Both the position numbers and the translations under genes were made by a program. A DNA stretch of 64,000 nt from Gayadomonas joobiniege G7 (GTDB lineage Bacteria > Pseudomonadota > Gammaproteobacteria > Enterobacterales > Alteromonadaceae). Positions 19,989 through 49,158 of the stretch are shown here, piece after piece (the first letter of the stretch is position 1; every line of letters starts with the position of its first letter). Location of the stretch: assembly GCF_000300815.1 (NCBI RefSeq), contig NZ_AMRX01000007.1, positions 310,001-374,000 of the forward strand. The letters are read 5' to 3'. Below the pieces are notes generated by a model. It worked only from the letters and a program-made list of their open reading frames with translations. It was not told where the DNA came from and ran no database searches.

Positions 19989-19997
19989 AAGCAACTC

Positions 19998-20558: not shown

Positions 20559-20633
20559 ATGAGTTCGAGTACTGTTTAACTTGATCAGTACTCGATTCCA
20601 TTTTTTTTTATCTATACATTATTAAAGAAAACT

Positions 20634-23310: not shown

Positions 23311-26300
23311 CTAATTAACAGTAAACCACGTTTCCCAATTTGCACTATTAACAACACGTGCTTTTTCCAATGCCTTTGCCAACTTAACCAACTGCTGTTT
23401 TGGATCTTGGTTAAAATCGAGCTTATGTAAACCCCGCTCTACTTCAACTCGCCAATACCCAACCCCCTGATCAAAGGTGATTGTTGATTCATGTCCCCCA
23501 TCAAACTTTAATGTTAAGCTTCTTCGGTGAGGTACTTCATGCTTACCTACAACGTTCAGCTTGGCTTTTTCAGAGCAATTGTATTGTAGCCACGCGGTAA
23601 AAATATCTTGATAGTCGTCTTCATAAACCCAATCGTGTTGAATAGCATAACCAGGAGGTGCTTTTTTATCGGTAAAACAAGTGAATACTTCGATACTTGT
23701 TCTATCGTTTTTAGGTATAGCTGATAAAAATTCACATAACATCATCATACTCGTTGGGCTTTGAATATATCGGTCTGTATATGTTATCGACTGTAATGTA
23801 TTGGTACTAATATGCTTTTCCAAGTTTACATTGGCATTTGTTAAGTGAGTTAATAACCTTTTACCAAACCCGATTAGTGGACCGTTTAACTCACTGAGCG
23901 CTGACACTTCTACTGCCCCAATTTCTTTTTCAGCTTTAAATGAGATTTGTTTTCCAATTATCTCATGAAATTGTTCTGACTGTACCGTTATTTCGTCACT
24001 GACTAACCATTCCTCACCCGGCAATTGTGCTAGCGTATTAGGGTTAGCAATAGTAATATAATGATCACCTCTAATCACTTGAAATACTACGGGGTAATTA
24101 AGTTGAGAGGTATGTATATCTACGCCAATACTTTCTAGTTCAGATAGAAAAGCCCTAACATCATCATTAAATTTAACATCAGGCACAAAAACTTGTACTT
24201 TTATTTGATCCGCTAAATAACTATGAAAGTGTGATTTAAATTGTGCAATTGAAGTATCCCAATCATCTACATTTTTAGATAAAACAAACTTAACGGTATT
24301 CGGCTTACTTCTAATGAACTCACTTAATTTTTCTTTTAATGTACTGGCTACATATTCAACCGGAACGCTAGGCCCCAATAACTGTTGAAACTCTGTCGGT
24401 AAAGCTATATACGCATGTATACCATTCAACCATCCTAAAGCAGCCTTACGATCTAACAAATCTATATCATGTCTCGAGTCAGATTCAAGAAGACACTTAT
24501 GACAATAACAATCACACTCTTCATCACAACCTAATATATTTCGAGCTTTATCAAGTAAATTTTCAATGTTATCTTTTGCAGACGTCGCAAAACCAGCTCC
24601 GCCACTAACCATATCAAAAAGTTGAATCGCATGTGCTTTAGCATCTTTATCAATTAATGTAGGGCGACTGCCATAGCCAACCTCATTCACGGCAATACCA
24701 AGCTCATTGACTAGTGCTTTACGTAACGCAACAGCAAGAGTTACAGCAACCGATTCGTTATTTAAATATTCATTGGTTATTGGATTACGTAAAACCAGCT
24801 CAAATACATCGGTTGTGGTATTATATCCTAAATGTATTCCTTCTAAAATCTTTCCTGTAGCAGTGCATTCTGGTTTACCTTTATCATCTCGCTGAAATTT
24901 AGTTGGCATCGGTGGTCTATGTGGCGTTTCTAACGACAGTGCTTTAGGTAACTCTGATGTGGTTGTCATAGACTCGGCTTTACCACAACTCAAACAAACA
25001 CCATAACCAGTGCCATGTAAACCAGAGCTATGGTGAAATACACTGCCTGTTGTATCACTGATCATAAAGCCAATATCAGGGTTGGGTAGTGGTATGTGTG
25101 TTCCTTTACCCATCACCCACGGTTGTTCTACCGGAACATAATGTGTATTGGCAATATTGTTTGTAGGTTCTCGGTAAAAATCCACCACAAAGCCAGTCGG
25201 CTGAATGACCTTTCTTTGATTATTTAATTTAATAGGTTGAGCACACTCTACGTTAGAGCAAATAATATCATTTTGTTTACTTAAATCGGCTTCATAGCCT
25301 GTTTGCCCGCATTTAGCACAACGCCATGCAACATCAAACTTTTGAGAATCTTTGCCACCATCTACATGAATATTTTGCCAATTAAGAGAAATGCCTGCTG
25401 AGCGATGAACTCGTCCATCTAATACTAACTCAGTACCGGGCGCAAACTCACGAATAGCAACAGCTAAATTGCGACTAGGCATACCACGACTCACGGAAAC
25501 ATTATCTTCCCGTTCAATGCTTTTATCTTTATATTTTTCCTTATCTTGTTGTGTACGTTGCCAATCAATCAATGAATCAACTTTAATGTTTACAACATCA
25601 GTTGGAAATCCATAACCCGGTAAAAAGCCACGTGTTGCTAAATCCCTTAATAGATATTCCTTTATCAACCTATTTTGGTCGCTGTTTAGCCTGTGAGCAT
25701 ATGGCCCTTCTGGATCTATATTCTTTAATTCGCTTGCAATATAGTTATATTCCGCCAACCAACGGTTGGCTAAGTCTTCTATTTTACCAACCGTATCATC
25801 ACGTAAAGATTTAATGGATGAGTTAGCTAGTATTGTCCCTTTTACCAGCAATTTTATCTCTTCAGTTAAACCTGTACTTAAACTATCAACCCAGTCAATA
25901 AACTGTTCATATACAGCTTTTTCAGCCTCACCTTTAAAGTAAAACCACTGCAAATTTAAGAACAACTTCTCTTTACTTGTTGTGCCAATTTTGTCCCTTA
26001 AAAAGATGCCCAACAAAAATGAATTAACATGGCGTTGCACTATTTTTTTAGAGCTAAAAGTAACATTAGGAGCTAAGATTGGTGTAATAAAAGGCCATTT
26101 AGGCTCATTAAATACAAACTGGTCATGAGGGTTGCTTTTACAAATAGTAAAACCGATAGCCCGTGATTCACTTGAACGTCCCGCCCGGCCCGCTCTTTGT
26201 AAATAATTAGCAGGATGTGGGGGCACGTTATTCATCACAACTGCACTAATGCCACCAATATCAACCCCCATCTCCATTGTTGTTGAACAATTTAATACGT

Positions 26301-29300
26301 TCTTTTGTCCGTTTTTAAAACGTTCTTCGTAGCGCTCTAAGTTTTCAGACTTCTGCTGTGCTGAGTGCTCTGCCGTTGTATAATAAAAACCGCCTTCTAC
26401 TGCACTATCGTTAATATCCGTCCATAAATTTTGTTCACGTAAAAGCTTTACCTTTTCATCCTTAGCAATATTTTTTCTAGTTTCTGCCACATACCTAGAA
26501 TTATCTGTACTTGTGTCAAACTCCCAAATCGAAGGCAATGTAACAGACTTACATAAATAACTATCAGGATCTTTATTTGCCGGCATATAAGGCGATAAAC
26601 CTGCAAAAACTGTATCTATTAATTTGTTGGTCACAGGGCAAATATACGCATCTGTAAATAAACTAAATTCAACAGTATTTAAGTTAAGTTGATACTGTTT
26701 TCCTGCATATTCATTTAGTGTACGAGTATTAACTAAAACATCCCAGGCAGACCTTAACCAGGTATTAATTTGGTCCTCTTCACGTTTACCTATGTTATTA
26801 AACTTTGCCGCTTTAATTAAAAGGTTAACGATGCGCTGTTGACGAGCCGTGCCTTTCTTGTATAAAGGCCAACGTTTTACGCTATTCTCATTTTCATCAC
26901 TTGAATCTGGGCTAATTAAAAATTTAGGATAAAAATGCATACCTACCCAGCGAGATATTTCATGTGGTATGTTTACATAGGTATTCTCACGGACATAAAA
27001 ATCCATGCACACTTTTAAATAGTTTTTCCAATCTTGCAGCGTAAAGTTATTTTCCTTCCAAAAATCTGGTACTTTATTGATCAACTCTATTTTAGGGTAA
27101 ACCAACTTTACTAACCCTTGCGTCTCAACGTTATTTCTATTTTTGGGACGACGGGCAACTTCTCGAGTTAATATCATTTCAGAAAGTTTTGTTGCATCAT
27201 TTAATGCAAATACTTCACGGGCAAGGTAATGGTTTTCAAAGGTCATTGATTTTGCGATATTATCGTCGCCTTTTAAAACGTCGATCATTTCCTTCCAGTT
27301 AACAGAGATCGGTTTTAGGCTTGGCTTTGTATTTGATTGAATGGCTACTATATATTGCTCAAGTGCAATAGCATCATCTGGTTTTACCTGCTTAATCGAC
27401 GGTAGTAAAATTTTTAGTGTGTCAATTGGCATTGAACTATAGTCTTTCACTTTTTCAAGAAGCTCAGGATCTATATCCATTTTTTCTTCAAGGTGCTTTT
27501 TAAGCTCTCTAACTAAAGACCCTCTAAAATAAGACCGCTCTGCCTCTTGTTGCATATTCACCGAAATTTTAGCGGTACCTTGACGGCTGTCGGTAAAGGT
27601 GATCAACCTGCGGCCACGTGCAGGCAGCTCATTCGGCCCAAGTTGTTTAGTGTCGCTATCTTTGTCTGCTTCAAAATCTGGGCAATACTCTAAAATTGTT
27701 GGTACAACATTGGTCGCATAAAAAGGCGCGCCCAACATAGCTCGCCTAAGTGCACGTGTATTTTTACCGGTATACCCACAGTTAGAACATTCTTGGTCAT
27801 CTTGTGGTCTTTCTGCTAAAAATATCTCACCTTCATCAAACGTCAGTTTTCCTTCTTTAGTTACACCTATTTTATAGTAACCACTTTCTTCATTTTCATT
27901 AGCACTAAACACAACGGGCTTTGATGTTTTATAGGTTGGTGATTTAGTACGTACATTGAGTTCATCTTGTAATTCGTCTTCCCGCTCCCCTTCGGTAAGA
28001 GCAAACTCATCAACATGACTATTTACCCATTGTTGGATATGTGAATTATTATCATAAACACCAAGTAAATGGGGTTCATTGCATTCTTCGCAAAAAGACA
28101 ATTCAAGCACAGGCGCACCACAGTCACAGCGTGTTCTGTGTTTGGAATATACAGTGCCAAACTGCCAGTTTTCTTTGAGTCCTGACGGTTGTTTATGACT
28201 ACAGTTTTTATCTATACATGACCACAAACCATCTAGTGTTCGTTGAAAATAATGTGCTCTTAGTTTTAAAAATGCTTCGTCATTTGCACTTGGTTTAGTC
28301 GCAGTACAAACATCAAGCCATTGATAAATTTCATCTTCAGTTAAATTAAAATGACTTAGACGCTGTTTAAGTTCATTAATCGTTTTGGGCGGGGTGTTTG
28401 GCTCGGTCAAAATAGCTCGTAACTCAACTGCTATTTCACTAGCTTCTAACGCCTGATACCTTAATTTTGAGATATCAGGATCACGTTTATCTTTTTTCTT
28501 TACCGGAACTATTCCTTCAGGCTCTATTTGTTTTATTTGAGCTAAAGATAGATCTTGTTTGGCTTTTTCTTCTAAAGGTGGTACAACTCGCTGACCACCA
28601 ATAACATCAACTTGATCAACCGAAATATTCGCTAAACTAGCAAGGTACATTTTTAATTTTTCTTCTGCTTTTGAGCCCGCAATGGTTGCTGAAGTTGCGA
28701 CAAACCTAATATTTTCAGGCCTTACTTCAAAAGCTTGCATGACTCGGCGTAATTGTAATGCTAATTCTGCGGCTTGTGAGCCAACATAGGTATGCGCTTC
28801 ATCCAATACAATCCACCGAAGTTTACCTTTAGACTTTTCAATAATGGGGGCGTCGGTTTGCCTAACCAGCATATACTCAAGCATGGTGCCATTAGTTACC
28901 AGAATTGGCGCTGGGTTTTCACGTAAGCCCTCTCGACACATAACCTCTTGTGGTCTCACTTTTTGTTTTTGCTTTTCTTTACCATTCAAATGTTCAGGCG
29001 TTTTACCATTAAACAAACAAAAACGAATATTCCCCTCAAAATGCTGAGTCCATGCGTTTAAACGTTCACGCTGAGAATTAATAAGCGCATTAAGTGGATA
29101 CAAAAATATCGCCCTAACACCTTCAAGTTGCTCTTTTGATTGTTCATACTCTCGATATAAATCTTCCAGCACTGGCACCATGAAACACTCTGTTTTACCA
29201 GATCCTGTACCGCTGGTAATGATCCGCGACTGCACTTTATCATCTAACAGCTCGTTCCATGCTTTATATTGGTGTGCAAATGGGTTCCATGTTTTCTTAA

Positions 29301-29577
29301 AGGCATAGCGATTGTTTTTGTCAGAGTCCAATGCATCTACTACAGCTTGCGACAATAAGCCTTCTGGTACCAGATCCCGCATCTGAAATTTAGTATTTCT
29401 TTCCCAACTAAACATTTGTTCAAAAACAGGTCCGTTAACAAACTGTTCATCTGTTTGCATTTTATTATTTAAGTGTTTTCTTAAATTAGGGTTATTAATA
29501 CCTAGCACACTTAATGTTGCCTCTTTAGCACGAGCATTGGCTTGTTTTTTTAGAGTTGAAAAAAATCCATTCATCAT
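23311..29577 (-). CDS. druE: DruE-like DEAD/DEAH helicase with DUF1998 (Druantia type III)
   Basis: A very large (about 2088 aa) superfamily 2 helicase. Motifs in order: ITSGTGSGKTE (Walker A, about residues 120-130), IVLDEAHTYVGSQAAEL (DEAH), two zinc-knuckle-like Cys sets (CDCGAPVLELSFCEEC, CSNCGYTG), the helicase C-terminal NCSTTMEMGVDIGG and QRAGRAGRSS, and a late DUF1998 region with CDCYCHKCLL and DLLDRKAALGWL. Size and layout match DruE, the shared protein of Druantia defence systems. Start choice: the frame is open from 29640, but ATG 29577 has AGGAATAAG before it and follows the druH stop by 1 bp. The pairing with the DruH-like gene defines type III. Last gene of the leftward defence operon. 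Confidence 0.85.
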   Translation of the reverse strand: MMNGFFSTLKKQANARAKEATLSVLGINNPNLRKHLNNKMQTDEQFVNGPVFEQMFSWERNTKFQMRDLVPEGLLSQAVVDALDSDKNNRYAFKKTWNPFAHQYKAWNELLDDKVQSRIITSGTGSGKTECFMVPVLEDLYREYEQSKEQLEGVRAIFLYPLNALINSQRERLNAWTQHFEGNIRFCLFNGKTPEHLNGKEKQKQKVRPQEVMCREGLRENPAPILVTNGTMLEYMLVRQTDAPIIEKSKGKLRWIVLDEAHTYVGSQAAELALQLRRVMQAFEVRPENIRFVATSATIAGSKAEEKLKMYLASLANISVDQVDVIGGQRVVPPLEEKAKQDLSLAQIKQIEPEGIVPVKKKDKRDPDISKLRYQALEASEIAVELRAILTEPNTPPKTINELKQRLSHFNLTEDEIYQWLDVCTATKPSANDEAFLKLRAHYFQRTLDGLWSCIDKNCSHKQPSGLKENWQFGTVYSKHRTRCDCGAPVLELSFCEECNEPHLLGVYDNNSHIQQWVNSHVDEFALTEGEREDELQDELNVRTKSPTYKTSKPVVFSANENEESGYYKIGVTKEGKLTFDEGEIFLAERPQDDQECSNCGYTGKNTRALRRAMLGAPFYATNVVPTILEYCPDFEADKDSDTKQLGPNELPARGRRLITFTDSRQGTAKISVNMQQEAERSYFRGSLVRELKKHLEEKMDIDPELLEKVKDYSSMPIDTLKILLPSIKQVKPDDAIALEQYIVAIQSNTKPSLKPISVNWKEMIDVLKGDDNIAKSMTFENHYLAREVFALNDATKLSEMILTREVARRPKNRNNVETQGLVKLVYPKIELINKVPDFWKENNFTLQDWKNYLKVCMDFYVRENTYVNIPHEISRWVGMHFYPKFLISPDSSDENENSVKRWPLYKKGTARQQRIVNLLIKAAKFNNIGKREEDQINTWLRSAWDVLVNTRTLNEYAGKQYQLNLNTVEFSLFTDAYICPVTNKLIDTVFAGLSPYMPANKDPDSYLCKSVTLPSIWEFDTSTDNSRYVAETRKNIAKDEKVKLLREQNLWTDINDSAVEGGFYYTTAEHSAQQKSENLERYEERFKNGQKNVLNCSTTMEMGVDIGGISAVVMNNVPPHPANYLQRAGRAGRSSESRAIGFTICKSNPHDQFVFNEPKWPFITPILAPNVTFSSKKIVQRHVNSFLLGIFLRDKIGTTSKEKLFLNLQWFYFKGEAEKAVYEQFIDWVDSLSTGLTEEIKLLVKGTILANSSIKSLRDDTVGKIEDLANRWLAEYNYIASELKNIDPEGPYAHRLNSDQNRLIKEYLLRDLATRGFLPGYGFPTDVVNIKVDSLIDWQRTQQDKEKYKDKSIEREDNVSVSRGMPSRNLAVAIREFAPGTELVLDGRVHRSAGISLNWQNIHVDGGKDSQKFDVAWRCAKCGQTGYEADLSKQNDIICSNVECAQPIKLNNQRKVIQPTGFVVDFYREPTNNIANTHYVPVEQPWVMGKGTHIPLPNPDIGFMISDTTGSVFHHSSGLHGTGYGVCLSCGKAESMTTTSELPKALSLETPHRPPMPTKFQRDDKGKPECTATGKILEGIHLGYNTTTDVFELVLRNPITNEYLNNESVAVTLAVALRKALVNELGIAVNEVGYGSRPTLIDKDAKAHAIQLFDMVSGGAGFATSAKDNIENLLDKARNILGCDEECDCYCHKCLLESDSRHDIDLLDRKAALGWLNGIHAYIALPTEFQQLLGPSVPVEYVASTLKEKLSEFIRSKPNTVKFVLSKNVDDWDTSIAQFKSHFHSYLADQIKVQVFVPDVKFNDDVRAFLSELESIGVDIHTSQLNYPVVFQVIRGDHYITIANPNTLAQLPGEEWLVSDEITVQSEQFHEIIGKQISFKAEKEIGAVEVSALSELNGPLIGFGKRLLTHLTNANVNLEKHISTNTLQSITYTDRYIQSPTSMMMLCEFLSAIPKNDRTSIEVFTCFTDKKAPPGYAIQHDWVYEDDYQDIFTAWLQYNCSEKAKLNVVGKHEVPHRRSLTLKFDGGHESTITFDQGVGYWRVEVERGLHKLDFNQDPKQQLVKLAKALEKARVVNSANWETWFTVN

Positions 29578-29578
29578 C

Positions 29579-32500
29579 TTATTCCTGAATAAAAAAGCAT
29601 AATGAGCATTGATAAACGGCATCAAACCAATTTCTATCAAACTCTATTAACTGGCGTAATAAAAAATAATTCACTTCTGAACAGCCAAGTACTTCTTCCC
29701 AAGTTACACTAGTTGAAGCAACAGCAGCCGCAACCATGGGGAAATACATAATTGAGCGTTGAAAGTCATGCGGAACATTAAAGAGTGTAAGTTCTGGGTA
29801 ATTCTTTCCAATCCATTCGCTAAGTTGAGTTTTATAATGCTGAGGCCAACGAACTATTTCATCAGCATTGTTCCTAAGCAAATTTTCACGGTAGAACTCC
29901 ACTAATCCAGAGTACCTTGCTTTATTGCTAGCATTTAATGAGAATAAATCAGGCAATGATACAAAACTACAAATAGCTTCTAACTTTTCAGCCGTATATT
30001 TAGCCACTAAAACATCTGGCAACCCCAATTGCGTCATATGTGATTCATAAAGGTTCTGTCCATGTTGCCACAAACTCAAGGGGATCAATTCCCAAACAAT
30101 ATTAAATTCTGTTTGTAGAATTTGTAGAACATTTGCGGTATTTAACTTAGTCGCAAAAGGTAAGATTGCCAAACAGTTAGGATGGCGCGCAAGTGCTTTA
30201 AAAGCCTCAAATGTTAACATCGGTAAGTGTGCATATTTTTCAATCAAACAATCCAAATAACGCCAGCCTGAATGCCCTATGTCTGTTGCCATAGCACTTA
30301 ACACTTCATCAAATACAAATTTATTAAACTGTGGATGAAAAACTTCTGCCGCTTTCCCTAACGAACGTATTCTATCAGGCGCCTCTGATTGTTCTGTGGG
30401 GGGAATAAACACAGGCCTAAATTGCACATTTGAACTTTGTGAAGGTACAGCAAGTTTAGGTGAGTCAATTACCGGGGGCAATTCAAAGGTGCCAATGCAT
30501 GCACCATCCGATGTTCGTTGCGCTAAAGATTGCGACTTTTGCTCTGGGTTAGCTAAGTTGATTAGTTCTACTTTTAAACCTGAAAAATCAACATCAGTGT
30601 GCGCATCAAACGTTAGAATGTTATGTTCTCTATTTCCTGTTAATGCAAACCAGCCGATAGTATATTGTTTTGTTCTCATTCCTGGCGCACTAATTAACAT
30701 TCTAACCACTTCATCGAGTTCTGAAGATTCAGCCGTTGCGAGTAATTCTTTTATTTTCTCCCGCAAATCAAAAAGGTTTACCTCTTCAACAAACTTATCA
30801 ACTTGATAATTAAATACATAAACTGCATTACCTTGCGCACTGGTTGGTGCTTTTAATTCTATTTCAAATGTCGTACAGGCTTTATGGGCCTCTTTGAATA
30901 AATTAATTCTAGCGCCCAGTAAATTATCGACTGAAAAGTGTCGCGGCAACTCTTTACCATTGCCATCAAACAACAATGCACCTTTGCTTGGGAAGGGTAA
31001 TTTTAGCTCTATAGGTTCAGCAAGTAAGTTTGCTTGTATCGCTATATTAAAATAGGCGGGTGGTATATGGTCGGCTTGTAAATTAATACGTTTGCCATGC
31101 GCTATATTTATCGCATTTGAGGTTAATTCACCTGTTACATTATAAATAAAGGTAGTGTCGCTATGAATTTTAACACAACCTTCGTTAGCACTATTACTCG
31201 CTTGTAGCTGCATGGAAAAATTAGCAGGTAAAATAGCCAACTTACGTCGGTACAGTGTTTTATTGTTACGCTTAACCCTTAAAACTTGTCGGCCATACAG
31301 GCCAGCACTATATCTCACTTTACCTAATTCATCGTCGCCCAAAAAAACTTGCGTTTGTTGGAGATCACAGCTTACTTTAGGCAAACCTTTAAACACCGGA
31401 TAGCCTTTGTCTGTTGTAAATTCAAACTCTTCTCCTGTGATAGTTAATAATTCTTTATTAAAACTCTCTTCTTTTGTTGATATTTCATACGTATCACCGT
31501 GATCATCAAAAACATACTTTAGTGTTAACACGCCACTAAATGTTAATAACCGGTAATTTGTTTTTTGGCTATCTTCATGCAAAGTTGCGTGCTCAAGCTC
31601 TATTTGTGCATTTTTTGAAGTAATAACAGCTAATGAGCCTGCTTTTTTACTTTTACTGCCCATACCATAAACAAGCTGCTTATCATCATCGGCTAGTAAT
31701 ATAATTGGCATTTCTTGATGTGGGATTGCCGAGGCTGGAATTTCTTCGGTATAACAAACTCGCCCCGCTTGCATAATAACAAGCTTTAAATCAGCGTCGT
31801 TTAAGCTACGTCTAAATTGCGCTTTTAATTTACGTGTGTGTAAAACAACATGGTCATTAACTGGCTCAGCACGCGCCATACCTAGGTCGGCGATTTGACG
31901 GCTCCCCTCATAAATTAATACTTCAACCATTGGCGCGGATAAGTCGTGTTTACTAACAGAAGCCGTAAACTTACTACTTACCGTAATACTCGCCGCAAAG
32001 GTCAATTCATCACTAGGTACTAACCACTGCTCTAATTTTAAACGTTCGGCGTTTTTTCTAAATTCTTTTCGTTGTTCAGCCGCAGATTTAAGCAGGCCAG
32101 ATAAAAAGTCATCGCCGGTTTGATCATCAAACGGGATAGGAAAACTCACTCGCCATTTAGGCAAAGTTGAGTCAAGAAATTGCGTAGGATTACTTTGTTG
32201 TTCAAGCGCGTAAGTATCAATTAACCCATATAAGTTACTCACCATGTCATGGAGTAATTCAACCGTACTCAGCTCTTTAAATGCATCGGGCATTCTTACT
32301 AATTGCTGTTCAATTAACGGAATGGGCGACTGGCCAAAGGTTTTTGCTTTGTCATAATCGGCAAGTAAACGTTTAAACAAACTTTGAAACCGACTGCCCT
32401 GCTCGGCCAACAAACCAAAGGGTAAGCCACCTTCAGCGTAAACAGAGCCTAAATAATCATTGCGATTACCGCTGTGTTTATTAATGGGGCGCAGCCAAAA

Positions 32501-32839
32501 GTTCAGCCCTTTGGTAACAGCGGTTGAACGTTGGTTGGCGTCTATTTCATAACCCAAGGCTGCAAATATACCAGACCAAGTCCACCCAGAGCGGTATTCT
32601 CGTCGGTACCACTCAGCGCTAAACAAACAAAAAGCCGCACACCAATATTTGTTTTTAAACGTCGCGTTATTAGGCGCTTGTTGTTGTAATAAAGATTTTA
32701 GTCGAGAGTAATCCCCTACACTTAAATGATAGGTAAATAACGCAGCAGCAGTGGGGACTCGCAAGTTTCTTTTCGATAAAAACTCCGTGATAAAAGTAGT
32801 TACGTTATCTAATGTAACGGGCTTAAAAATTTCTGACAT
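29579..32839 (-). CDS. druH: DruH-like protein (STY4851/ECs_5259 type), Druantia type III
   Basis: A 1086-residue protein with no catalytic motif I can see. The N-terminus carries a conserved-looking stretch, WCAAFCLFSAEWYRREYRSG followed by WTWSGIFAALGY (about residues 67-99), which I associate with the STY4851/ECs_5259 family found beside DruE helicases. The middle is beta-rich, with repeated short strands suggesting Ig-like or jelly-roll modules; the end is helical. Its mechanism is unknown. It stops 1 bp before druE starts, so the two are translationally coupled, and 36 bp separate it from hsdS. The assignment rests on size, the partner gene and the N-terminal pattern. Confidence 0.72.
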   Translation of the reverse strand: MSEIFKPVTLDNVTTFITEFLSKRNLRVPTAAALFTYHLSVGDYSRLKSLLQQQAPNNATFKNKYWCAAFCLFSAEWYRREYRSGWTWSGIFAALGYEIDANQRSTAVTKGLNFWLRPINKHSGNRNDYLGSVYAEGGLPFGLLAEQGSRFQSLFKRLLADYDKAKTFGQSPIPLIEQQLVRMPDAFKELSTVELLHDMVSNLYGLIDTYALEQQSNPTQFLDSTLPKWRVSFPIPFDDQTGDDFLSGLLKSAAEQRKEFRKNAERLKLEQWLVPSDELTFAASITVSSKFTASVSKHDLSAPMVEVLIYEGSRQIADLGMARAEPVNDHVVLHTRKLKAQFRRSLNDADLKLVIMQAGRVCYTEEIPASAIPHQEMPIILLADDDKQLVYGMGSKSKKAGSLAVITSKNAQIELEHATLHEDSQKTNYRLLTFSGVLTLKYVFDDHGDTYEISTKEESFNKELLTITGEEFEFTTDKGYPVFKGLPKVSCDLQQTQVFLGDDELGKVRYSAGLYGRQVLRVKRNNKTLYRRKLAILPANFSMQLQASNSANEGCVKIHSDTTFIYNVTGELTSNAINIAHGKRINLQADHIPPAYFNIAIQANLLAEPIELKLPFPSKGALLFDGNGKELPRHFSVDNLLGARINLFKEAHKACTTFEIELKAPTSAQGNAVYVFNYQVDKFVEEVNLFDLREKIKELLATAESSELDEVVRMLISAPGMRTKQYTIGWFALTGNREHNILTFDAHTDVDFSGLKVELINLANPEQKSQSLAQRTSDGACIGTFELPPVIDSPKLAVPSQSSNVQFRPVFIPPTEQSEAPDRIRSLGKAAEVFHPQFNKFVFDEVLSAMATDIGHSGWRYLDCLIEKYAHLPMLTFEAFKALARHPNCLAILPFATKLNTANVLQILQTEFNIVWELIPLSLWQHGQNLYESHMTQLGLPDVLVAKYTAEKLEAICSFVSLPDLFSLNASNKARYSGLVEFYRENLLRNNADEIVRWPQHYKTQLSEWIGKNYPELTLFNVPHDFQRSIMYFPMVAAAVASTSVTWEEVLGCSEVNYFLLRQLIEFDRNWFDAVYQCSLCFFIQE

Positions 32840-32875: not shown

Positions 32876-34066
32876 CTATAATTCGCCAGCGAAAGCTTTT
32901 TGGCTTAGTGAGTGGAAGTTCTCTTGTAATTTATTAGTTGAGCCAAGGGCTAAGCAATCAAACTCATTTATTTTTTTTACGACTTTAAGAAATTGCAATT
33001 GCTTCTCAATAGGTGGTAAAACAACCTTAATTTTGCTCAATCCTTCTTGGTTTATATTCGTTATTGTTGCTGTATTAGAAGCATCAATAAGTTTTCTCCT
33101 TTGGGAGTTGGTTCTAAGCTGAATTGACAAAAATTTTGAATCGACATCAGGTGAATTGACTGACATTTTTATCATGAAGGAGCTAAACAAGCATGGCTCT
33201 GATGAGTCATATGCAGAGCAAAAAGCTACACCATCTCTTTTTACTGATGAGCGAACGAACAGTAAATCCCCCTCTTGCAACAAATACTTCTCAATCTCCT
33301 TATCACTAACTTCAAGCAAAGAATATTTGACTGGTGAAAAGTAAGGCTTCTCATAAAGATCACCAATATTGGCAACTTTGTGCCCTTTTCCATAAAACTC
33401 TTTATTCTTTCCAATACCATTTTGGAAAGAGCTGGCTATATCTCCAAGTGTTTTAACTTCCCATCCCTTAGGGTTGGTGACGGGATCGCCGAACATATCT
33501 AGAAAGACGCTGCGGAGGAAGTCGTCGGCGAGGTCAATGGCTTGTTGGCGTTTGCGGCGCACACTGTCGGCTTTATCTAAAATCGCGGCGATGCGTTTTT
33601 GTTCGTCCAGTGGCGGGAGTGGGATTTCCGTTTCTCTAGCACGACTAATTGTATAAGTTCCGACAGTTGCACCACTAGAGTTTTGAATAAACCTTTGTAC
33701 TACTGGGCTAGCAATAGCATATTGAACATATGAAATATCAACATCAATTTTTTTACGAAGCTTAATAACACTTGCGTCTTTAAAATAGAATTTGTCACCT
33801 TTTTGCACTGCGTATGTCAAACCTAAGGTCCCAACAGCAGTGACTAATATATCTCCTTCCTCTGGGGCACCAAACTTCGCTTTGTATTCTACATACATTG
33901 CTTCATCGATGAATAAATCATTATCAACTTTCCCTTCTCGTGAGAGTACAGCAATTTCTCTAGCTCGATAAAAAGGGATTCCTTCTTCCCTCCAATCTTT
34001 CTGATGTACGCGCTTACTTGAAGTAATTTCAAAGATATCCCCCAGCTTCACCATCGGCCAACTCAC
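32876..34066 (-). CDS. hsdS: Type I RM specificity subunit (system 2)
   Basis: A 396-residue HsdS with two target-recognition domains. The first ([20 protein letters not shown]... to [20 protein letters not shown]) ends in the conserved helix [19 protein letters not shown]. The second starts [16 protein letters not shown] and ends [38 protein letters not shown] is a typical end-of-TRD pattern. It overlaps hsdM by 4 bp (ATGA type), a coupled arrangement. It is unrelated at TRD level to the HsdS at 14750-15946, so the target differs. The downstream neighbour is the Druantia-like pair. Confidence 0.94.
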
Positions 34067-35643
34067 AGCATGCCCTCCAGCTCTTTCAACTCAGCCAAGA
34101 TCTCGTTTTCCAACGCTACCAACTTACTCAATATCAATTTTGGCGCTTCGTATTGCTCTTCCTCATAAACCACCTCTTTGTAGCGGTTAATGGAAAGATC
34201 ATATTTATTTGAAGTGATGTCTTCTTTGCTGACCCAAAACGCTTTTTGCGTTTTATCGTTTGCCTCAGTTTCAGCGATAGCTTTGTCACGGGCTTTAAAC
34301 TGGGCAACCAAATCTGGCAGGTCGTTATCTTTAATCGGTGTGCGTTTATCATCGAGCGAAAAGCCATCGGCTTGCACATCATAAAACCATACATGATCAG
34401 TGGTTCCGCCCTTGGTGAATATTAAAATCGCGGTTGATACACCCGCATAAGGTTTAAATACCCCACTAGGCAGTGAAATCACCGCCTCAAGCTGGTTATT
34501 ATCCACTAATAGTTTACGCAATTGTTGGTGCGCATTAGATGAGCCAAATAAAACACCATCAGGCACGATAGTCGCTGAGCGGCCACCTATACGTAACATG
34601 CGTTCAATCAACGCCACAAAAAGCAACTCAGTCTTTTTGGTTTTTACTTTACGTAAAATTTCTGGGCAAACATCTTCTTCATCTAACGAGCCTTTGAACG
34701 GAGGATTGGCGAGAATAATTTCCATGCCTTCTTTTGCTTCAGCAGGAAACTTCTCTAAGAAAGATTGGCTTAAGGTATCTTGGTAGTGGATATCGGGCTG
34801 TTTAATGCCGTGCATCACTAAGTTCATAGCCGCAACCCTTAACATGGTGGCATCAAAATCAAAGCCGTGGAACATATCGGTATCGATGTGTTTACGTGCA
34901 TCTTCGTCAATTAAATCGCCTGAATACAAGACGTTTTCAAGCTGTTTACCGTTGCTGTCTAATAACGGCTTGCCATCGACATCAAATAGCGGCTCGCGTT
35001 CAATACCTTCTGGTGAGGTATATTTCTCAAGTAGGTACTCGTAAGACACTGATAAGAAGCCACCTGTGCCCGTTGATGGGTCACAAATACGGCTGTTTTT
35101 ATCTGGGTCCATCATTTCCACCATTGCACGAATAATGTGGCGTGGCGTTCTAAACTGGCCGTTAATACCTGCCGTGGTTAACTTACTTAATAGATATTCA
35201 TATAAGTCACCTTTGGTATCAGAGTTTTCTAATGGTAAGTCGTTCACCATCTCTACCGCTTTCACTAATAGCGATTGCTTTTGGATCATCAACTGCGCGT
35301 CTTTCATAAACTCGTTGAAAATAGCGCCTTCGGTTGATTCATCATCATTGGCTTTAGAGAAATACGGAAATAGCTCGTCCTTAACCACTTTATAAAGTTC
35401 TTCCGCGCCTAAATGACGCAGGTTTTGCCAACGCAAATGTTGTTCGTTGTCATTAAAGCGGCGGGTAAACGGCTTTTTGATTCTGGCGAAACGCTTTTCA
35501 TCGGCTTGCTCATTCATATCGAGCATACGGGCATACATTAAAAAGGTAATTTGCTCGATTACCGTTAGCGGGTTGGTAATGCCGCCCGTCCAAAATTCTT
35601 CCCAAAGTTTGTCTATTTTGCTTTTAAGCTGACCTGTGATCAT
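34063..35643 (-). CDS. hsdM: Type I RM DNA adenine methyltransferase subunit (system 2)
   Basis: A 526-residue N6-adenine methyltransferase. The HsdM_N region ([16 protein letters not shown]) is followed by [15 protein letters not shown] near residue 165, the SAM motif [10 protein letters not shown] near 183, and the catalytic ANPPFKGS near 313. Full length. It is about 60 bp downstream of the rhuM-fic gene in the same direction. Sequence features differ clearly from the system 1 HsdM (DPCCGSGG, NPPFNQ), so the two systems belong to different type I families. Confidence 0.96.
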
Positions 35644-35704: not shown

Positions 35705-36679
35705 TTAATTCACGCTCAATAAGTTTTCAATTAAGCGAATAATGGTGTCTTTTTCTTGCGGCCTAGACTCTGCAACTAACAAAGTAATGGCCGCTAAGCC
35801 GGTGTCATTAATTACGGGTTGGTAATTGTCATTTAATAAACGGTTATTCCGATTTAAAAAATCGACAAATAAAAATGCGGCAGTACGTTTGTTGCCATCA
35901 CTAAAGGGGTGATTTTTTACCACAAAGTACAACAAGTGCGCGGCTTTACTTTCAATACTTGGATAAGCCGGTTCACCAAATACGGTTTGATCGAGTGCGC
36001 CCCAAATTGCGGCTAAACCATCTTCTCGTTCCTGTGCAAACAAAGGCGTGGCTTCTCCTTTATTGATAAGATTTTTTTTAAGTTCAGCAATGGCCGTTTT
36101 AGCATCGGCAAGTGGCGTTAACTCGCCACCTTGCTGGCCTTGGGGTGTTTCTAACAGGCCTTCGTCGTATCGCTGTAACCATAAAAACGTTTGGGTATAA
36201 CTGGCAATAATATCAACTAGCCCTACACCAAATTCACTGTTTTGCGGTAAAGCAGACGCACGTTTTACAAGTAACAACGCTTTTTCAAGCTCCTTGGCGT
36301 TTTGGCTTAAACGATCCTGGTTTAATGTGTAACCTTTGAGCAAGTGTTGCTTAAGCGTTTTTGTTGCCCATTGGCGAAACTTTACACCTTGTTGAGACTT
36401 TACTCGGTAACCGACAGAGATGATTACATCAAGGTTATAATGATTAGTTTGATAAGTTTTGCCGTCGGAAGCAGTTATCCGGAATTTCCGGACAACTTCA
36501 CTTTCAACCAACTCATTGTCTTTAAAAATATTACGGATATGCTCTGAAATGGTTCTTTTATTTTTATCAAATAGGGCTACCATATCAGCCTGAGTTAACC
36601 AAACTGACTCATCTTGCAAGGTAACTGCAAGTTGTAAGCTGCCATCGTCATTTTGAAACACTTCTACTTGATTAGCCAT
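35705..36679 (-). CDS. rhuM: RhuM-Fic/Doc fusion protein
   Basis: 324 residues. The N-terminal half is RhuM-like (VWLTQADMVALFDKNKRTISEH, then VVRKFRITASDGKTYQTNHY, then VISVGYRVKSQQGVKFRQW), a domain common beside type I RM genes. The C-terminal half is a Fic/Doc domain with HPFSDGNKRTAAFLF, catalytic His at residue 256. Fic enzymes transfer AMP or phosphate to target proteins; Doc-type members (HxFxxxNKR) phosphorylate EF-Tu. The gene starts exactly where hsdR stops, so it is co-translated with the restriction subunit. No inhibitory antitoxin gene is adjacent; the RhuM part might restrain the Fic part. Activity and role are inferred. Confidence 0.9.
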   Translation of the reverse strand: MANQVEVFQNDDGSLQLAVTLQDESVWLTQADMVALFDKNKRTISEHIRNIFKDNELVESEVVRKFRITASDGKTYQTNHYNLDVIISVGYRVKSQQGVKFRQWATKTLKQHLLKGYTLNQDRLSQNAKELEKALLLVKRASALPQNSEFGVGLVDIIASYTQTFLWLQRYDEGLLETPQGQQGGELTPLADAKTAIAELKKNLINKGEATPLFAQEREDGLAAIWGALDQTVFGEPAYPSIESKAAHLLYFVVKNHPFSDGNKRTAAFLFVDFLNRNNRLLNDNYQPVINDTGLAAITLLVAESRPQEKDTIIRLIENLLSVN

Positions 36680-39600
36680 TTACATGCTCACTTCTTTAGC
36701 TACCGTTTGTTTTTTATTACCCAACTCCACATCAAACTGTTTAATAAACTGTTCAATCACATCGGCTTGCGCTTCACTAAATACGCCGTCTAATCCCATG
36801 TCATGTACTTGGGTAAAGGGTGCATCGTACAGCTGATCAATTTTGATAACACCATATCGCACTAAGTGATTTTTTAATAAACCAATAAAACGCTGTTGTT
36901 TCGCATTCATATGGGTATGGGTTTGCTGTACAAATTGTGTAAAACGCTGTTCTATTACGTCTTTGTCCATACCAACAATAGTGCGTAGAATTTTATCTAA
37001 GCTTGCCGTTGAATCTGGATAAAATTCTTTTAAGGTATTTAAGTCTACATTCGGGTTTTGAATGTGAACCAAAGCATTTAAGCGAGCGATATCATCTTCG
37101 GTAACTGGGCTACCGGCACGGATTTTTTGTAATACGCTATCGGTTTCAAATAGTGGTGCTAAGGTTTTTTCCACCTCTTGGCGGAATATTTGATAGTCAA
37201 TCGACACTATCTTGGTGGGGCGCTCTGTAACCTGATAGTCAGCTTCATTTTCTCTTATGTCTAAGATAACTTCTTGTGAAGGCTGTTTTATACCTTTTTC
37301 TCTTAAATGAATAACGCTACGCAATGCCTTGCGACTGGTTTCCAGTGTTTCAAAACCGTCTATTGATGCTGTTAGGTTCTGCCAGTATTCCTCTTTTTGA
37401 ATATCTGCAATAAAACTTGCCTTAGCACGCACCTCATTTAAGTGCATTTGTAGTTTTTCTATCTTCACCATTAATGCTTGCCTAGCTAAGTCGATTTGGC
37501 TTGGGTCGGTGTATAGCAAAGTTTGGATAATGCCGATTTCATTATCAAATTTATAGGCTTCTGACTGGCCCATAATATTGCGCCATTGCATCAGAGGTGC
37601 AATATGTTCATAGAGACTTGCTTTAGTTTCTGGGGCAAACTGGTTGAGGTATTTTTCGTCTTTGCATGCTTCAACTACCTGCCAATTGTCACGCACCGCG
37701 ATGGTATTCATATCAAGTGACCACACATCTTGATGAATGAGTTTTATCACTTCATCAAACGTTGCAACATCGGCTTTTTTAAGTGCGGTTTCAGCCAATA
37801 ACAAGCGTGATTCAAATAGCTTTTGAGTCAGCGATTTTGACTGTTTAACGTCCTCTTCTTCTGGGTCCATATCGAAGTATTCGAAGTTTTCCCAGTGATC
37901 GAAAATCAAGAAGTGGCTTTTGTCTTTGCCTGCGCCGCTCTCTACACCAGCATAGAGATCTTTACACAAGCGCGTGCCACGCCCAATCATTTGCCAGAAC
38001 TTCACTTTCGATTTAATTGGCTTAGCAAATACGAGATTTACACATTCAGGCACATCAATACCTGTGTCGAGCATATCAACCGAGACGGCTATGCGAATGC
38101 TGTTTTCATCTGTCGATTTAAAATCGTCAATAAGCTCTTCAGCACGTTCATATTTCGAGTGAATAACTCGGCAAAAGTTATTCCCCAACTGCGGATACAT
38201 TTCTGCAAATAGGTTTGCCATAAGTTCGGCGTGAGCAATATTCCGCGCAAATACAATTGTTTTACCCGGCAATTGACCATCAACATCACGTAAACCTTTT
38301 TCCATCAGGTTACGCAGTATCACACGGTTGGTATCTTTGTTTTTTACCGCTTCATCGATTTGTTTGGCGTCGAAGTCTAACTCGTTAGGGTCAATGCCTT
38401 GCTCTTCTAGTTCCGCGATCTGCTCGTCGGTGAGATTATTTTTACTGATCCCTTCGCGCAGGAATTTAGTGGTAAAGCTTACGATTTTGTAGGGTACTAA
38501 GTTACCGTCTTCTATCGCTTGCTCTAGCGGGTAATTCGCCGTCGGCATTTTAAAATCGCAACCAAATAACTGACAGGTAGAACGAGACACCATTTCAACT
38601 GGGGTTGCAGTTAAGCCAACTTCTAATGCATCAAAGTATTTGAATATGTCGCCGTAAACATTGTAAATAGAACGATGTGATTCATCGGCAATAATAAGAT
38701 CAAAATAGCCAACATCATACTTTTGGAATATACGCATCATGCCCGGATAGGTTGCAATAAAAACACGAGCACTGCTTGCTGCTTCTTTTTTACTTTTTCC
38801 AACCACATAAAGCGGCTCTTTGGTAAATTCGTTAAAGGCATTACCCGCTTGTTTACGAAGCTCCTTTCGGTCACATAGGAATAAAACACGTTTTGCCCAG
38901 CCTGCATCGAGTAGCCGTTTGGCTAAAGCAATTGATACACGGGTTTTACCCGTACCTGTTGCTTGTACGATAAGAGATTTACGGTGTTTGTTGGTGAAAC
39001 GCTCACAGACTCGCGATATGGTTTCCATTTGGTATAGCCGACCAGCTACATCGGTATCAATAGGCGTTTGGTTGAGATCTTTTTTCAAAGTTCGCTGCTT
39101 AACAAGGTATTGCAGCGAGTCTTTTGAATAATAACCATAAAGCTTGCGGCTGTTATATCCTTGAGCATCATCTAAGATACGAATGTCGTAGCCATTTGAA
39201 TAGAATATTACAGGGCGTTGACCAAATTCTTTTTCCAGTGCATCAGCATAGATTTTGGCTTGCTCGCGGCCTTTTTCAACTGATTCACGAGTACGCTTTG
39301 CTTCAATAACTGCCAATGGCTTACCATCATCATCCCACAGAACGTAATCAGCTCTTCCGTTTCCACTATTCGTTGGCTGATGTGGCAAATCTACTTCTTT
39401 GCCCACTTCATCGGTGCTAGATTCGTCCAGTGATACATTCCAGCCCGCTGCACGTAAATCCATATCAATAATTCGGGCGCGAGTTTCATCCTCGTCAAAC
39501 TTAAAGCTTGATGTGATGTTCTTATTCAGCGATTGCACTTGGCTGACTTTTTCAGAGTCAATTGCTTGTTTAAGCTTGGATGCTTCAATTTGCGCTAACC

Positions 39601-40150
39601 TTTGCGCTTTCTCGGAAGCTTCCAGTTCCTCTAATGCTTTCTTTAACCGTGCTTCGTTTTCAGCTAGCTGTTTTTCAAGTTGTGTGTTCTTTTTAACAAA
39701 CTCTGCCCCAGATTGATCAATAGGTTTTGTTTGTTCTGGGATCGTAAACTCAGGACAATCTTCTTGCTTGCCTCCCGCATAAGCCATATAGAGGTAACTA
39801 GCGACAAAGTAACTTTCTTTTAATATCCAGATAGCTTGCTGTTGATCGACTTTGCCTTCATGCGCAGCTTGGTTACCGCTTTTACGGATCGCATGAAGTT
39901 TGTCAGTAATTAAGCTAGGTACGACACTTGTGAAGTCGTCTGAGGTTAACTTGTCATAGATGTTAGAGTTGGGGAATACAGGTAGGCGAAGCTCCTTGTA
40001 CAAATATCCAACCACTTTTTCAGCAAAACAGCGCAACTTTACTAAAGCACTTTGTGGGTCACTGACCACATAGTCTTCTGCAAATGCAGCAAGCTGATGT
40101 AATTCAGGCCATTTGGTTTGGATATGTTCAAAATTCATTGATTGCTTCAT
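36680..40150 (-). CDS. hsdR: Type I restriction enzyme R subunit (system 2)
   Basis: 1156 residues. An N-terminal DUF4145-like region (about 5-120) and a coiled coil (about 150-205, LEKQLAENEARLKKALEEL) precede the nuclease domain with GNGRADYVLWDDDGKPLAVIEAKR (PD...ExK, about 260-285). The helicase motor has QATGTGKTRVS (Walker A, about 397), IIADESHRS (DESH), GLTATPV and MIGRGTRLC. The C-terminus is helical. This architecture is the EcoKI/EcoEI-like form and differs from system 1. First gene of the operon: ATG 40150 is about 20 nt from the predicted sigma-54 transcription start, with AAGGA and AGGA upstream. A second ATG at 40138 is possible. Confidence 0.95.
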   Translation of the reverse strand: MKQSMNFEHIQTKWPELHQLAAFAEDYVVSDPQSALVKLRCFAEKVVGYLYKELRLPVFPNSNIYDKLTSDDFTSVVPSLITDKLHAIRKSGNQAAHEGKVDQQQAIWILKESYFVASYLYMAYAGGKQEDCPEFTIPEQTKPIDQSGAEFVKKNTQLEKQLAENEARLKKALEELEASEKAQRLAQIEASKLKQAIDSEKVSQVQSLNKNITSSFKFDEDETRARIIDMDLRAAGWNVSLDESSTDEVGKEVDLPHQPTNSGNGRADYVLWDDDGKPLAVIEAKRTRESVEKGREQAKIYADALEKEFGQRPVIFYSNGYDIRILDDAQGYNSRKLYGYYSKDSLQYLVKQRTLKKDLNQTPIDTDVAGRLYQMETISRVCERFTNKHRKSLIVQATGTGKTRVSIALAKRLLDAGWAKRVLFLCDRKELRKQAGNAFNEFTKEPLYVVGKSKKEAASSARVFIATYPGMMRIFQKYDVGYFDLIIADESHRSIYNVYGDIFKYFDALEVGLTATPVEMVSRSTCQLFGCDFKMPTANYPLEQAIEDGNLVPYKIVSFTTKFLREGISKNNLTDEQIAELEEQGIDPNELDFDAKQIDEAVKNKDTNRVILRNLMEKGLRDVDGQLPGKTIVFARNIAHAELMANLFAEMYPQLGNNFCRVIHSKYERAEELIDDFKSTDENSIRIAVSVDMLDTGIDVPECVNLVFAKPIKSKVKFWQMIGRGTRLCKDLYAGVESGAGKDKSHFLIFDHWENFEYFDMDPEEEDVKQSKSLTQKLFESRLLLAETALKKADVATFDEVIKLIHQDVWSLDMNTIAVRDNWQVVEACKDEKYLNQFAPETKASLYEHIAPLMQWRNIMGQSEAYKFDNEIGIIQTLLYTDPSQIDLARQALMVKIEKLQMHLNEVRAKASFIADIQKEEYWQNLTASIDGFETLETSRKALRSVIHLREKGIKQPSQEVILDIRENEADYQVTERPTKIVSIDYQIFRQEVEKTLAPLFETDSVLQKIRAGSPVTEDDIARLNALVHIQNPNVDLNTLKEFYPDSTASLDKILRTIVGMDKDVIEQRFTQFVQQTHTHMNAKQQRFIGLLKNHLVRYGVIKIDQLYDAPFTQVHDMGLDGVFSEAQADVIEQFIKQFDVELGNKKQTVAKEVSM

Positions 40151-40181
40151 TCCTAGTTATTCCTTGTGTCGCTTCCTATAT

Positions 40182-40198
40182 GGCAAGCACAGTGCCAA
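40182..40198 (-). promoter_or_regulatory. Sigma-54 (RpoN) promoter of the defence operon
   Basis: On the minus strand the sequence reads TTGGCACTGTGCTTGCC. The -24 GG and -12 GC are separated by the required 10 bp, and it agrees with the consensus YTGGCACGRNNNTTGCW at nearly every position. It lies in the 56-bp gap between the sigma-54 activator gene and hsdR, and points at hsdR. Transcription should start at about 40171. Confidence 0.85.
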
Positions 40199-40206
40199 AT
40201 TTGAAA

Positions 40207-41724
40207 TTATTGTTGATTATCTGCTTTATCATTTTCAATTCCCAATCGCTTCATCCAATTTGTTAGCGTTTGATGGTCTTTTAAGCCCAACATTTGGGTA
40301 GCGTGTTTTTTAACATTTCCGCTTGCCTTTAATGCTGCTTCAACATATTTTTTTTGATAATTTTCAGTTAGTTGAATTATATCCACTTTATCATTATAAG
40401 ACAGCCTAACATCCTTTTTTTTCTCATCAAGTCTTCTATTTATGATCGCTTCAGACAATTCCTTTTCACCTACCAATCTTGTATCTGTCCAGAGAAAAGC
40501 CCTATTTAATGTGCTCCACAATTCACGAATATTGCCTAGCCATGATTGCGATAAAATAAATTTAATTCCATTTTCGGAAACTTTTTTACTTATATAGTCT
40601 GGGTGTTTTGAACCTGAATCATTAATTTTTTCTGTCAGTTGTTCAACTATAGCTGGAATATCTTCAAGTCGATCTCTAAGTGGTGGCATATTGATAATGC
40701 CCACCGCTAATCGATAAAACAGATCTTCTCGAAAATCCCCTTGTTCAATCAAGGTGGTCAAATCTTGGTGGGTAGCCGCGATAACGCGCACATCGACATT
40801 AATGGTTTTTGTATCACCAAGTCTGGTAATTTCACCTTGTTGTAATGCCCTTAGAAGCTTAACTTGTATATCAGGTTTTAATTCACCCACTTCATCTAAA
40901 AATAAAGTACCGCCATTGGCTTGCTCAAATAGACCAGCATAATCTTTATCTGCGCCAGTAAACGCCCCTTTTTTATGACCAAACAGTGTTGAATCAACTA
41001 GATTTTCAGCAAGCGCACCACAGTTTACAACTCTAATAGGCTTATTTGCTCTAAGGCTACCTTTGTGGATAGCATTTGCCATTAGCTCTTTACCAGTACC
41101 TGTTTCACCTAAGATAAGTGCTGGAACTTCGGACGCTGCTATTCTTTTTGCCTTTTCAACCACCTCGCGCATTGCTTTAGATTCAGCCGTTAATTCAAAA
41201 AATGCTTTTTGTATTTTAGGTAATGAAGTCGCTGTATGAGCAATGTTCTTTGAGGCAGACTTTACGTATTCTTTACCGAAATCCAGTGGTATTTCGACTT
41301 CTTCAATAACGTTTTTCGGAGACGATTGCACAAAGCGTGTATTGGACTTTCCTTTACCATGCAGTACAGAAAGGGTTGTCATTGCGGGCGTGCCGGACGT
41401 TAGATTGATCGATAGAATGTCAGATTCTTCAGATAATTTAGTTATCCATTTTTCCGTTTCAACTGAAATAGATTGGTAGTCAATTGGATTTAGGATCTTT
41501 GCCATGTGAATTTTAATATCATTTGAAGGGCGTCTTATCATGGCCATACGCTTTTTCAAAAAGCGTTCAAACGAATCCCACTTAGCTTCATCTTTGTTAG
41601 AAAGAATAACGATTTTATCGAATGGAACTTTAGATTTTGTCGCGAGTGAAACAATAGCCGCGTTTTGCTCTTGCTCCATGCTTTCAATATCGCGATTACC
41701 AAGCCATGTAAAAAGTGTATGCAC
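40207..41724 (-). CDS. RtcR-like sigma-54 activator with CARF-like sensor domain
   Basis: A 505-residue bacterial enhancer-binding protein. The N-terminus (1-160) starts HTLFTWLGNRD and has INLTSGTPAMTTL (about 106-118) and RFVQSSPKN, matching the pattern in E. coli RtcR (ITTGTHVAQ... IQSSPP), a CARF-type domain that senses nucleotide or RNA-end ligands. The AAA+ domain has GETGTGKE (206-213), the sigma-54 contact loop GAFTGA (253-258), Walker B TLFLDE (273-278) and FREDLFYRL. A Fis-type helix-turn-helix (about 464-495) ends the protein. Start: GTG 41724; the only nearby ATG (41749) is in another frame. The promoter at 40182-40198 lies just downstream and drives the RM-Druantia operon, so this protein is its likely switch. 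The ligand is unknown. Confidence 0.9.
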   Translation of the reverse strand: MHTLFTWLGNRDIESMEQEQNAAIVSLATKSKVPFDKIVILSNKDEAKWDSFERFLKKRMAMIRRPSNDIKIHMAKILNPIDYQSISVETEKWITKLSEESDILSINLTSGTPAMTTLSVLHGKGKSNTRFVQSSPKNVIEEVEIPLDFGKEYVKSASKNIAHTATSLPKIQKAFFELTAESKAMREVVEKAKRIAASEVPALILGETGTGKELMANAIHKGSLRANKPIRVVNCGALAENLVDSTLFGHKKGAFTGADKDYAGLFEQANGGTLFLDEVGELKPDIQVKLLRALQQGEITRLGDTKTINVDVRVIAATHQDLTTLIEQGDFREDLFYRLAVGIINMPPLRDRLEDIPAIVEQLTEKINDSGSKHPDYISKKVSENGIKFILSQSWLGNIRELWSTLNRAFLWTDTRLVGEKELSEAIINRRLDEKKKDVRLSYNDKVDIIQLTENYQKKYVEAALKASGNVKKHATQMLGLKDHQTLTNWMKRLGIENDKADNQQ

Positions 41725-41949
41725 TGTCGAATTGCTTATTTTTATTCATTTGTAAATCATCTTACATGAAATAATTATTTTTACCTAATGTAAGGAATAA
41801 GCTTGATTTATCATAGAAGGCTTAAAAAAATATGTCATGTGTTTAGCAGTAGTTTGCTCGATGACACCAAATAATTTCGAACTAAACCCACACCTACATT
41901 ACCCATTCGCTAACAATCCGATAAACTTTAAATTTAAGAGGTAATAAAC

Positions 41950-47102: not shown

Positions 47103-47170
47103 GACCAGAATGTAGACAATGCCAATTAATAGAAATATGACTAAACAGAATAAGTTTTGGAGAAAGCCCT

Positions 47171-49060: not shown

Positions 49061-49089
49061 ACCCTGAAGTCACTCTAATCGGCTTGCCT

Positions 49090-49116
49090 TTGCCTCTGCT
49101 GATGAGGCAGAGGCAA
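49090..49116 (+). other. Strong hairpin between lipoprotein and halogenase-like gene
   Basis: TTGCCTCTGC and GCAGAGGCAA form a perfect 10-bp stem with a 7-nt loop. There is no T-run after it, so it is more likely an mRNA processing or stabilising element, or a partial attenuator, than a full terminator. Confidence 0.55.
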
Positions 49117-49158
49117 GACTATGCTAAAGTGAAAAAAATAACTTGATGCGGAGGTTTT

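Follow-up and report, generated by a model that had tools for sequence, protein, structure and literature searches.

The window analysed here, 64,000 nucleotides (nt) of Gayadomonas joobiniege G7 (contig NZ_AMRX01000007.1, positions 310,001 to 374,000), carries a defence operon on its minus strand in which genes for a type I restriction-modification (RM) system, a RhuM-Fic protein and Druantia type III follow the gene of a putative CARF-AAA+-helix-turn-helix (HTH) activator of sigma-54-dependent transcription (Table 1). The operon genes from hsdR to druE all lie downstream of the activator gene and on its strand, and RpoN is encoded in the genome. A conserved -24/-12 promoter at the end of the activator gene, together with conserved tandem palindromes before and within it, makes it highly probable that the operon is governed by a signal-gated, sigma-54-dependent switch whose enhancer lies within the coding sequence of the activator itself.

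Table 1. Features of the activator region and the defence operon (positions in the window)
Feature	Position	Strand	Basis
-24/-12 (sigma-54) operon promoter TGGCACTGTGCTTGCC, predicted +1 at 40171	40182..40197	-	consensus scan, conservation
Candidate enhancer (upstream activating sequence, UAS), palindromes 40575-40590 and 40555-40570, 20 nt apart	40555..40590	.	synonymous-site conservation, non-coding matrix
Tandem palindromes 41751-41766 and 41770-41785, 19 nt apart, candidate self-regulation site	41751..41785	.	inverted-repeat counts, matrix scan
CARF-AAA+-HTH sigma-54 activator (RtcR_PspF2 type), 505 amino acids	40207..41724	-	PADLOC, Pfam, NCBIfam profiles
hsdR, type I restriction subunit, first gene of the operon	36680..40150	-	PADLOC REase_I 886.3 bits
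RhuM-Fic protein	35705..36679	-	Pfam RhuM 88.5 bits, Fic 49.3 bits
hsdM, type I methyltransferase	34063..35643	-	PADLOC MTase_I 605.4 bits
hsdS, specificity subunit	32876..34066	-	PADLOC Specificity_I 327.7 bits
DruH, Druantia type III	29579..32839	-	PADLOC DruH3 1070.6 bits; NCBIfam YjiT_fam 1102.8 bits (cut-off 150)
DruE helicase, Druantia type III	23311..29640	-	PADLOC DruE3 2413.9 bits

The activator

The activator is encoded by an open reading frame (ORF) with a GTG start. PADLOC profile RtcR_PspF2 (PDLC01995), for which the library supplies no cut-off, matches it with 594.5 bits over profile positions 2-481 of 481 and residues 2-497 of the protein; the runner-up PADLOC profiles score 255 and 190 bits. 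The PADLOC family names probably go back to work of Makarova in 2020. The RtcR-pattern motifs named in the initial annotation were located at residues 109-115 (TSGTPAM) and 133-138 (QSSPKN), and the AAA+ domain that it described matches Pfam PF00158 with 228.8 bits (cut-off 20.2), with GAFTGA at residues 253-258. The Fis-type HTH region scores 16.2 bits against Pfam HTH_8, below the cut-off of 22, and aligns across the family.

The CARF assignment of the sensor domain rests on profile membership, including a match to PADLOC CARF_HEPN (E 8.8e-6), and is best read as provisional. The domain reaches 21.5 bits against Pfam Cas_Csm6_CARF, below the cut-off of 27.5; its best PDB profile match, to Csm6, is weak (E 0.1); and a single-sequence AlphaFold2 model had a predicted local distance difference test score (pLDDT) of 35 and was not used. 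Two viral contigs (L181, L182) code for distant relatives of the sensor domain, with 24-26% identity.

Against the NCBIfam RtcR model (NF038308) the whole protein scores 308.9 bits and does not reach the equivalog cut-off of 650. No match to RtcB (PF01139) was found in the genome at E 0.001, in a search that gives matches in nine of 14 control genomes. The regulator is thus RtcR-like, but not RtcR.

A conserved sigma-54 promoter leading defence operons

Forty homologous loci besides the window were compared (designated by L numbers), one from a search of genome contigs, seven on plasmids and the rest from further genomes, making 41 loci in all. One activator (L130) is incomplete at 308 amino acids and was excluded, leaving 40 with the window's own. 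The genome-contig search was based on a whole-protein alignment, which placed its patterns in the AAA+ domain; L018 was the sole close relative that it yielded. Seventeen loci found later, mostly of one family, served as a hold-out set. The 79 other loci from the genome-contig search, sigma-54 activators picked by AAA+ similarity, served as controls (78 of them usable); only for L019 does the match begin before residue 60.

The minus strand at 40198-40182 reads TTGGCACTGTGCTTGCC, within which the element TGGCACTGTGCTTGCC (40197-40182) begins 9 nt past the activator stop codon and matches 10 of the 12 consensus letters. A -24/-12 element had been proposed in the 56-base-pair gap between activator and hsdR; the gap is indeed 56 nt long, and the GG at 40196/40195 and the GC at 40184/40183 are correctly spaced, which puts the predicted +1 at 40171, about where the hsdR 5' end had been expected. 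As a positive control, the consensus scan gives the site upstream of E. coli K-12 rtcB a score of 12/12.

The ends of the activator genes were scanned from -30 to +100 relative to the stop codon, and 35 of the 40 proved to have an element scoring 9/12 or more. For comparison, one was present at 21 of 661 further ORF ends of these loci, in 2.4% of random 130-nt stretches (n=19,700) and at two of the 78 ends of other sigma-54 activators. The hold-out set has the element in 16 of 17 loci. Within the 35 elements the T, C and A of TGGCA, letters that are not required, are kept in 35, 35 and 34 respectively, while the four spacer letters vary. The promoter moves with the first gene of the operon: the element of L116, L134 and L137 is 83-165 nt past the stop codon, before that gene.

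Homologues without linkage to defence operons had been named in advance as a refuting outcome; 38 of the 40 directly lead restriction or other conflict-system genes, which does not refute the proposal. The HsdR match starts no more than 100 nt past the activator stop in 29 of the 40; in L113 hsdR is split, with its best piece starting at 1,509 and an ORF starting at +31. Six activators (L116, L117, L134, L137, L151, L163) head VWA-PP2C-kinase-type operons, including one (L134) in which the VWA match starts at 4,406, behind a DUF4258 gene at 166. Two more head MoxR-VWA pairs, not restriction genes, with promoter and palindromes both present (L118:21613-24664, L132:12347-15452). Druantia III genes occur in at least six of the 41 loci and RhuM-Fic in at least three, both lower bounds because 4.0-22.2 kilobases (kb) of downstream sequence were covered per locus. 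HsdR follows the activator in 14 of the 17 hold-out loci (1.5-kb flanks), and no Hsd, Dru or that VWA gene was found downstream of any of the 78 other sigma-54 activators. With element and defence linkage both conserved across the family, the sequences make sigma-54 control of the operon by the adjoining activator, through the element originally named, very likely.

A few loci weigh against this. Five of the 40 homologues have no element in the scanned stretch. In L116 a 9/12-type site lies beyond it, at +165, still before the first operon gene; L125 and L129 keep the -24 with a degenerate -12; and no element was found at the activator ends of L131 and L156 between -30 and +100. Codon 271 of the L129 activator is an in-frame stop, and decay may be affecting promoter and activator alike. 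As to linkage, none of 23 query proteins matched downstream of the L131 activator, and the hsd genes of L156 are on the opposite strand. L156 looks like a rearrangement. Its upstream DNA is identical to that of L157; past its stop codon the sequence differs, the promoter is gone and the hsd genes are inverted farther off.

Tandem palindromes before and within the activator gene

Among perfect inverted repeats counted ahead of the activator genes, GTAA-N6-TTAC stood out (12 of 40 loci), with 15 copies in 21,589 nt before these genes against 15 in 917,078 nt elsewhere. In its wider form, GNAA-N6-TTNC, the palindrome is found as two tandem copies with a spacing of 19-20 nt, one such pair lying ahead of the activator gene and another within the coding sequence. 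A matrix was built from 11 non-coding upstream sites; upstream matrix hits (in 11 loci) are therefore circular, and hits in coding, gap and downstream sequence are not. The pair before the activator gene is the top-scoring one in the window, with its 41751 site among the 11, and the two best tandem pairs in the 64 kb are this one and the intragenic one; no extra pair was found there. In 40 of 40 loci, no sigma-54 element of at least 9/12 lies between these upstream copies and the start of the activator gene, so self-activation through sigma-54 is not indicated there. The upstream pair probably sets the activator's own level.

The non-coding matrix also matches the last 400 nt of the activator gene. 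Intragenic pairs are found about 340-395 nt upstream of the promoter, and in the window the two copies lie 393 and 373 nt before the -24 element. Codon-level comparisons covered 38 genes (L130, L155 and L160 were left out); the row of L129 is off by one codon in them, owing to its in-frame stop, with DNA-level scans unaffected. Over some 500 windows and 655 pairs under 62% identity, codons 381-386 have the highest synonymous-codon conservation of the gene, with an observed/expected ratio of 2.2 against a mean of 1.06 (standard deviation, sd, 0.15). This peak is 7.8 sd over the gene mean, and it stays on top among pairs under 45% and under 40% identity (6.2 sd in the latter). The best windows of HsdR and HsdM are 5.3 and 4.1 sd above their own means. 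Tested against synonymous-codon shuffles at 1,212 positions, the non-coding matrix matches best at codon 385 (z 13.9), followed by codon 379 (z 10.6) at a distance of 20 nt; the remaining coding positions reach z 6.5 or less. When spacings of 10-40 nt were scanned, 20 nt was found in 17 of 41 loci and any other spacing in at most three.

The case for an intragenic enhancer is weakened by its uneven distribution. By synonymous shuffles the first palindrome is individually significant in 17 of 38 genes, comprising 13 of 16 in the window's order and four of 22 elsewhere; the signal is thus most distinct close to the clade of the window and fainter in relatives among pseudomonads and betaproteobacteria. 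Only 14 of 41 loci have strong tandem pairs above threshold within the gene, and the pairs of three hold-out loci (L164-L166) are weak.

Two loci in which the operon starts farther from the activator have the pair in the gap instead, with 20-nt spacing in each case, at -99/-79 (L116) and -89/-69 (L137) of the -24 element. Lying in non-coding sequence at enhancer distance, these argue against a coding explanation.

Beyond the activator region, nine strong tandem pairs were found in 864,268 positions, all of them 8.7-15 kb downstream of an activator (L112, L114, L119, L121, L123, L126, L127, L128, L160). The remote pair of L114 precedes druH, and those of L112, L126, L127 and L119 precede a helicase gene. 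In four cases (L114, L119, L121, L160) a sigma-54 element of 9-11/12 lies 88-120 nt on. Such an element is held by 218 of 16,400 random 80-nt stretches, and the chance of four in nine is about 4e-6 if the 88-120 nt distance alone is allowed, or, by estimate, of the order of 1e-3 over the whole 350 nt inspected. The arrangement suggests a multi-promoter defence regulon. Counting against it, in the other five remote pairs TGGCAT is present and the -12 is degenerate; of these five, L112, L126 and L127 are near-identical in sequence.

The operon and its surroundings

Both DruE3 and DruH3 are matched, the combination expected of Druantia type III. All six operon proteins match RM, RhuM-Fic or Druantia models, and no CoCoNuT genes (CnuB/CnuC, CnuH) were found among them, no CoCoNuT-specific model having been run. 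RadC-like, recombinase-like and phage-replication-like ORFs, identified by eye, adjoin the operon at 18947-21296 and suggest a mobile island. On the other side, at 43338-52132, one TonB-dependent-receptor-like and two flavin-halogenase-like ORFs (also by eye) are apparently unrelated. Elsewhere in the family, L114 has a JukA-JukB pair (L114:27886-29573; PADLOC, JukB 471 bits) between type I RM and Druantia III, with the same kind of activator. In L112 (L112:27796-30152) and its relatives an AAA/DUF3696 protein and a partner of about 296 amino acids recur after hsdS; these are AriA-like, with a weak PADLOC match.

Relation to known systems

The initial annotation suggested that this control could be a previously undescribed layer, which goes too far. 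RtcR-like CARF-AAA-HTH proteins beside RM genes were predicted to be sigma-54 activators of DNA restriction a decade ago (Makarova, 2014; PMC4012209), and superoperons led by RtcR homologues, with type I RM directly behind the CARF gene and Druantia type III also present, have since been described in work that likewise predicted such control (Bell, 2024; PMC11090510). The activator resembles the proteins of the former, and the PADLOC family RtcR_PspF2, in domains, RM linkage and predicted sigma-54 control; the passages on them in that paper give no promoter or binding site, whereas here both were found and are conserved. The operon shares with the CoCoNuT, type I RM and Druantia III superoperons the RM genes after the CARF gene, the later Druantia III and the single strand, but not, on the matches above, the CoCoNuT genes; the running text of Bell (2024) has the word "promoter" once and names no site.

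E. coli RtcR has the same architecture and acts at a -24/-12 promoter; it is 28% identical over 400 aligned positions, with TTGTHVA and QSSPPR in place of TSGTPAM and QSSPKN. Its gene is divergent from rtcBA, an RNA-repair target, whereas the window genome is without RtcB; and no comparable palindrome pair was found at E. coli rtcBA, where the best single score is 9.0. RptR (PMC12255303) and BrxR/WYL (PMC9122601) offer a parallel, in that they too are dedicated to regulating RM or defence islands. RptR is a repressor, and neither "CARF" nor "RtcR" occurs in the main text of its report. That an RM repressor has been reported also makes the initial statement that RM systems are normally constitutive too strong. 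That sigma-54 can bind within genes is, in general terms, already on record (PMC4591121). In the openly licensed literature searched, no report of a promoter or enhancer of these operons was found; the concept of control is known, and the promoter and enhancer sites look new.

Regulatory model and alternatives

RtcR, kept inactive by its CARF domain, binds tRNA fragments that end in a cyclic phosphate (PMC7790460). By analogy, the CARF domain of the activator would sense a small signal made in infection or RNA damage, for which 2',3'-cyclic-phosphate RNA is the RtcR precedent. The signal would free the AAA+ ring, which would assemble on the tandem palindromes and loop to RNA polymerase-sigma-54 parked at 40182-40197. 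Transcription would then start at about 40171 and run through hsdR, rhuM-fic, hsdM, hsdS, druH and druE, and in some islands extra palindrome copies would serve later defence modules. An enhancer inside the activator's coding sequence would make activator, enhancer and promoter one compact cassette.

It is possible, if somewhat doubtful, that the sigma-54 promoter is real but only a boost, with the operon mainly read through from the activator's own sigma-70 promoter and restriction and methylation always partly on. The genes are on the same strand, and the 56-nt gap has no terminator-like site listed on the minus strand. Transcripts that start at the promoter of the activator could therefore continue into the operon, and the silence until a ligand appears that was initially predicted is a hypothesis. 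A 10/12 sigma-70-like site is present before the activator gene (41838-41810), and if the methyltransferase were fully silent, the host would be without protection when induction sets in. Note however that sigma-70-like sites in the region are fewer than in shuffles (37 vs. 51.7), which makes this site weak evidence for read-through, and that sigma-70-like promoters upstream of hsdM are not above shuffles either (30 loci, mean 3.5 vs. 4.8).

A similarly tentative alternative concerns the trigger, which could be RNA damage or translation stress of any cause and not phage as such; the operon would then be a stress regulon whose genes happen to include those for defence. The cyclic-phosphate tRNA fragments bound by RtcR, the nearest characterised relative, and the motifs common to both proteins favour this. 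The genome is without RtcB, however, and the neighbours of the family are defence or conflict modules, not repair genes.

It seems improbable that the palindromes belong to another regulator, or that constraint on the protein or its codons accounts for the intragenic ones, with the true enhancer elsewhere. The region does code for a conserved protein stretch (KKxS...A), and E. coli rtcBA has no comparable pair. Against this reading stand the synonymous-shuffle control and the same pair in the non-coding gaps of L116 and L137, and the pairs were found only near the genes of this activator and in the nine downstream places in 864 kb. A chance -24/-12 match is hardly credible: the window has four sites of at least 10/12 (two on each strand, operon promoter included), but conservation of position in 35 of 40 and 16 of 17 loci refutes chance as a general account.

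If the signal-gated switch is as proposed, the activator gene might, more speculatively, be a portable alarm cassette, with further enhancer-promoter pairs wiring later modules into one regulon and induction perhaps amounting to programmed self-restriction (abortive infection) in place of ordinary restriction; this extension is rather unlikely as it stands. On that reading, with the methyltransferase in the same operon and without a detected promoter of its own, switching on would mean that restriction meets an unmethylated host chromosome.

Little is known about how RM, Druantia and similar systems stay off or on. The conserved promoter and enhancer make a ten-year-old prediction, that CARF proteins control restriction through sigma-54, directly testable, and their sequence signature could locate the whole regulon in any genome. 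If true, an enhancer lying in the coding sequence of the very protein that uses it would be an unusual cis-regulatory arrangement. A sharp question is also raised, whether the host is methylated before the alarm: if the operon is off beforehand, so is methylation, and the DNA of the host itself would be exposed on induction.

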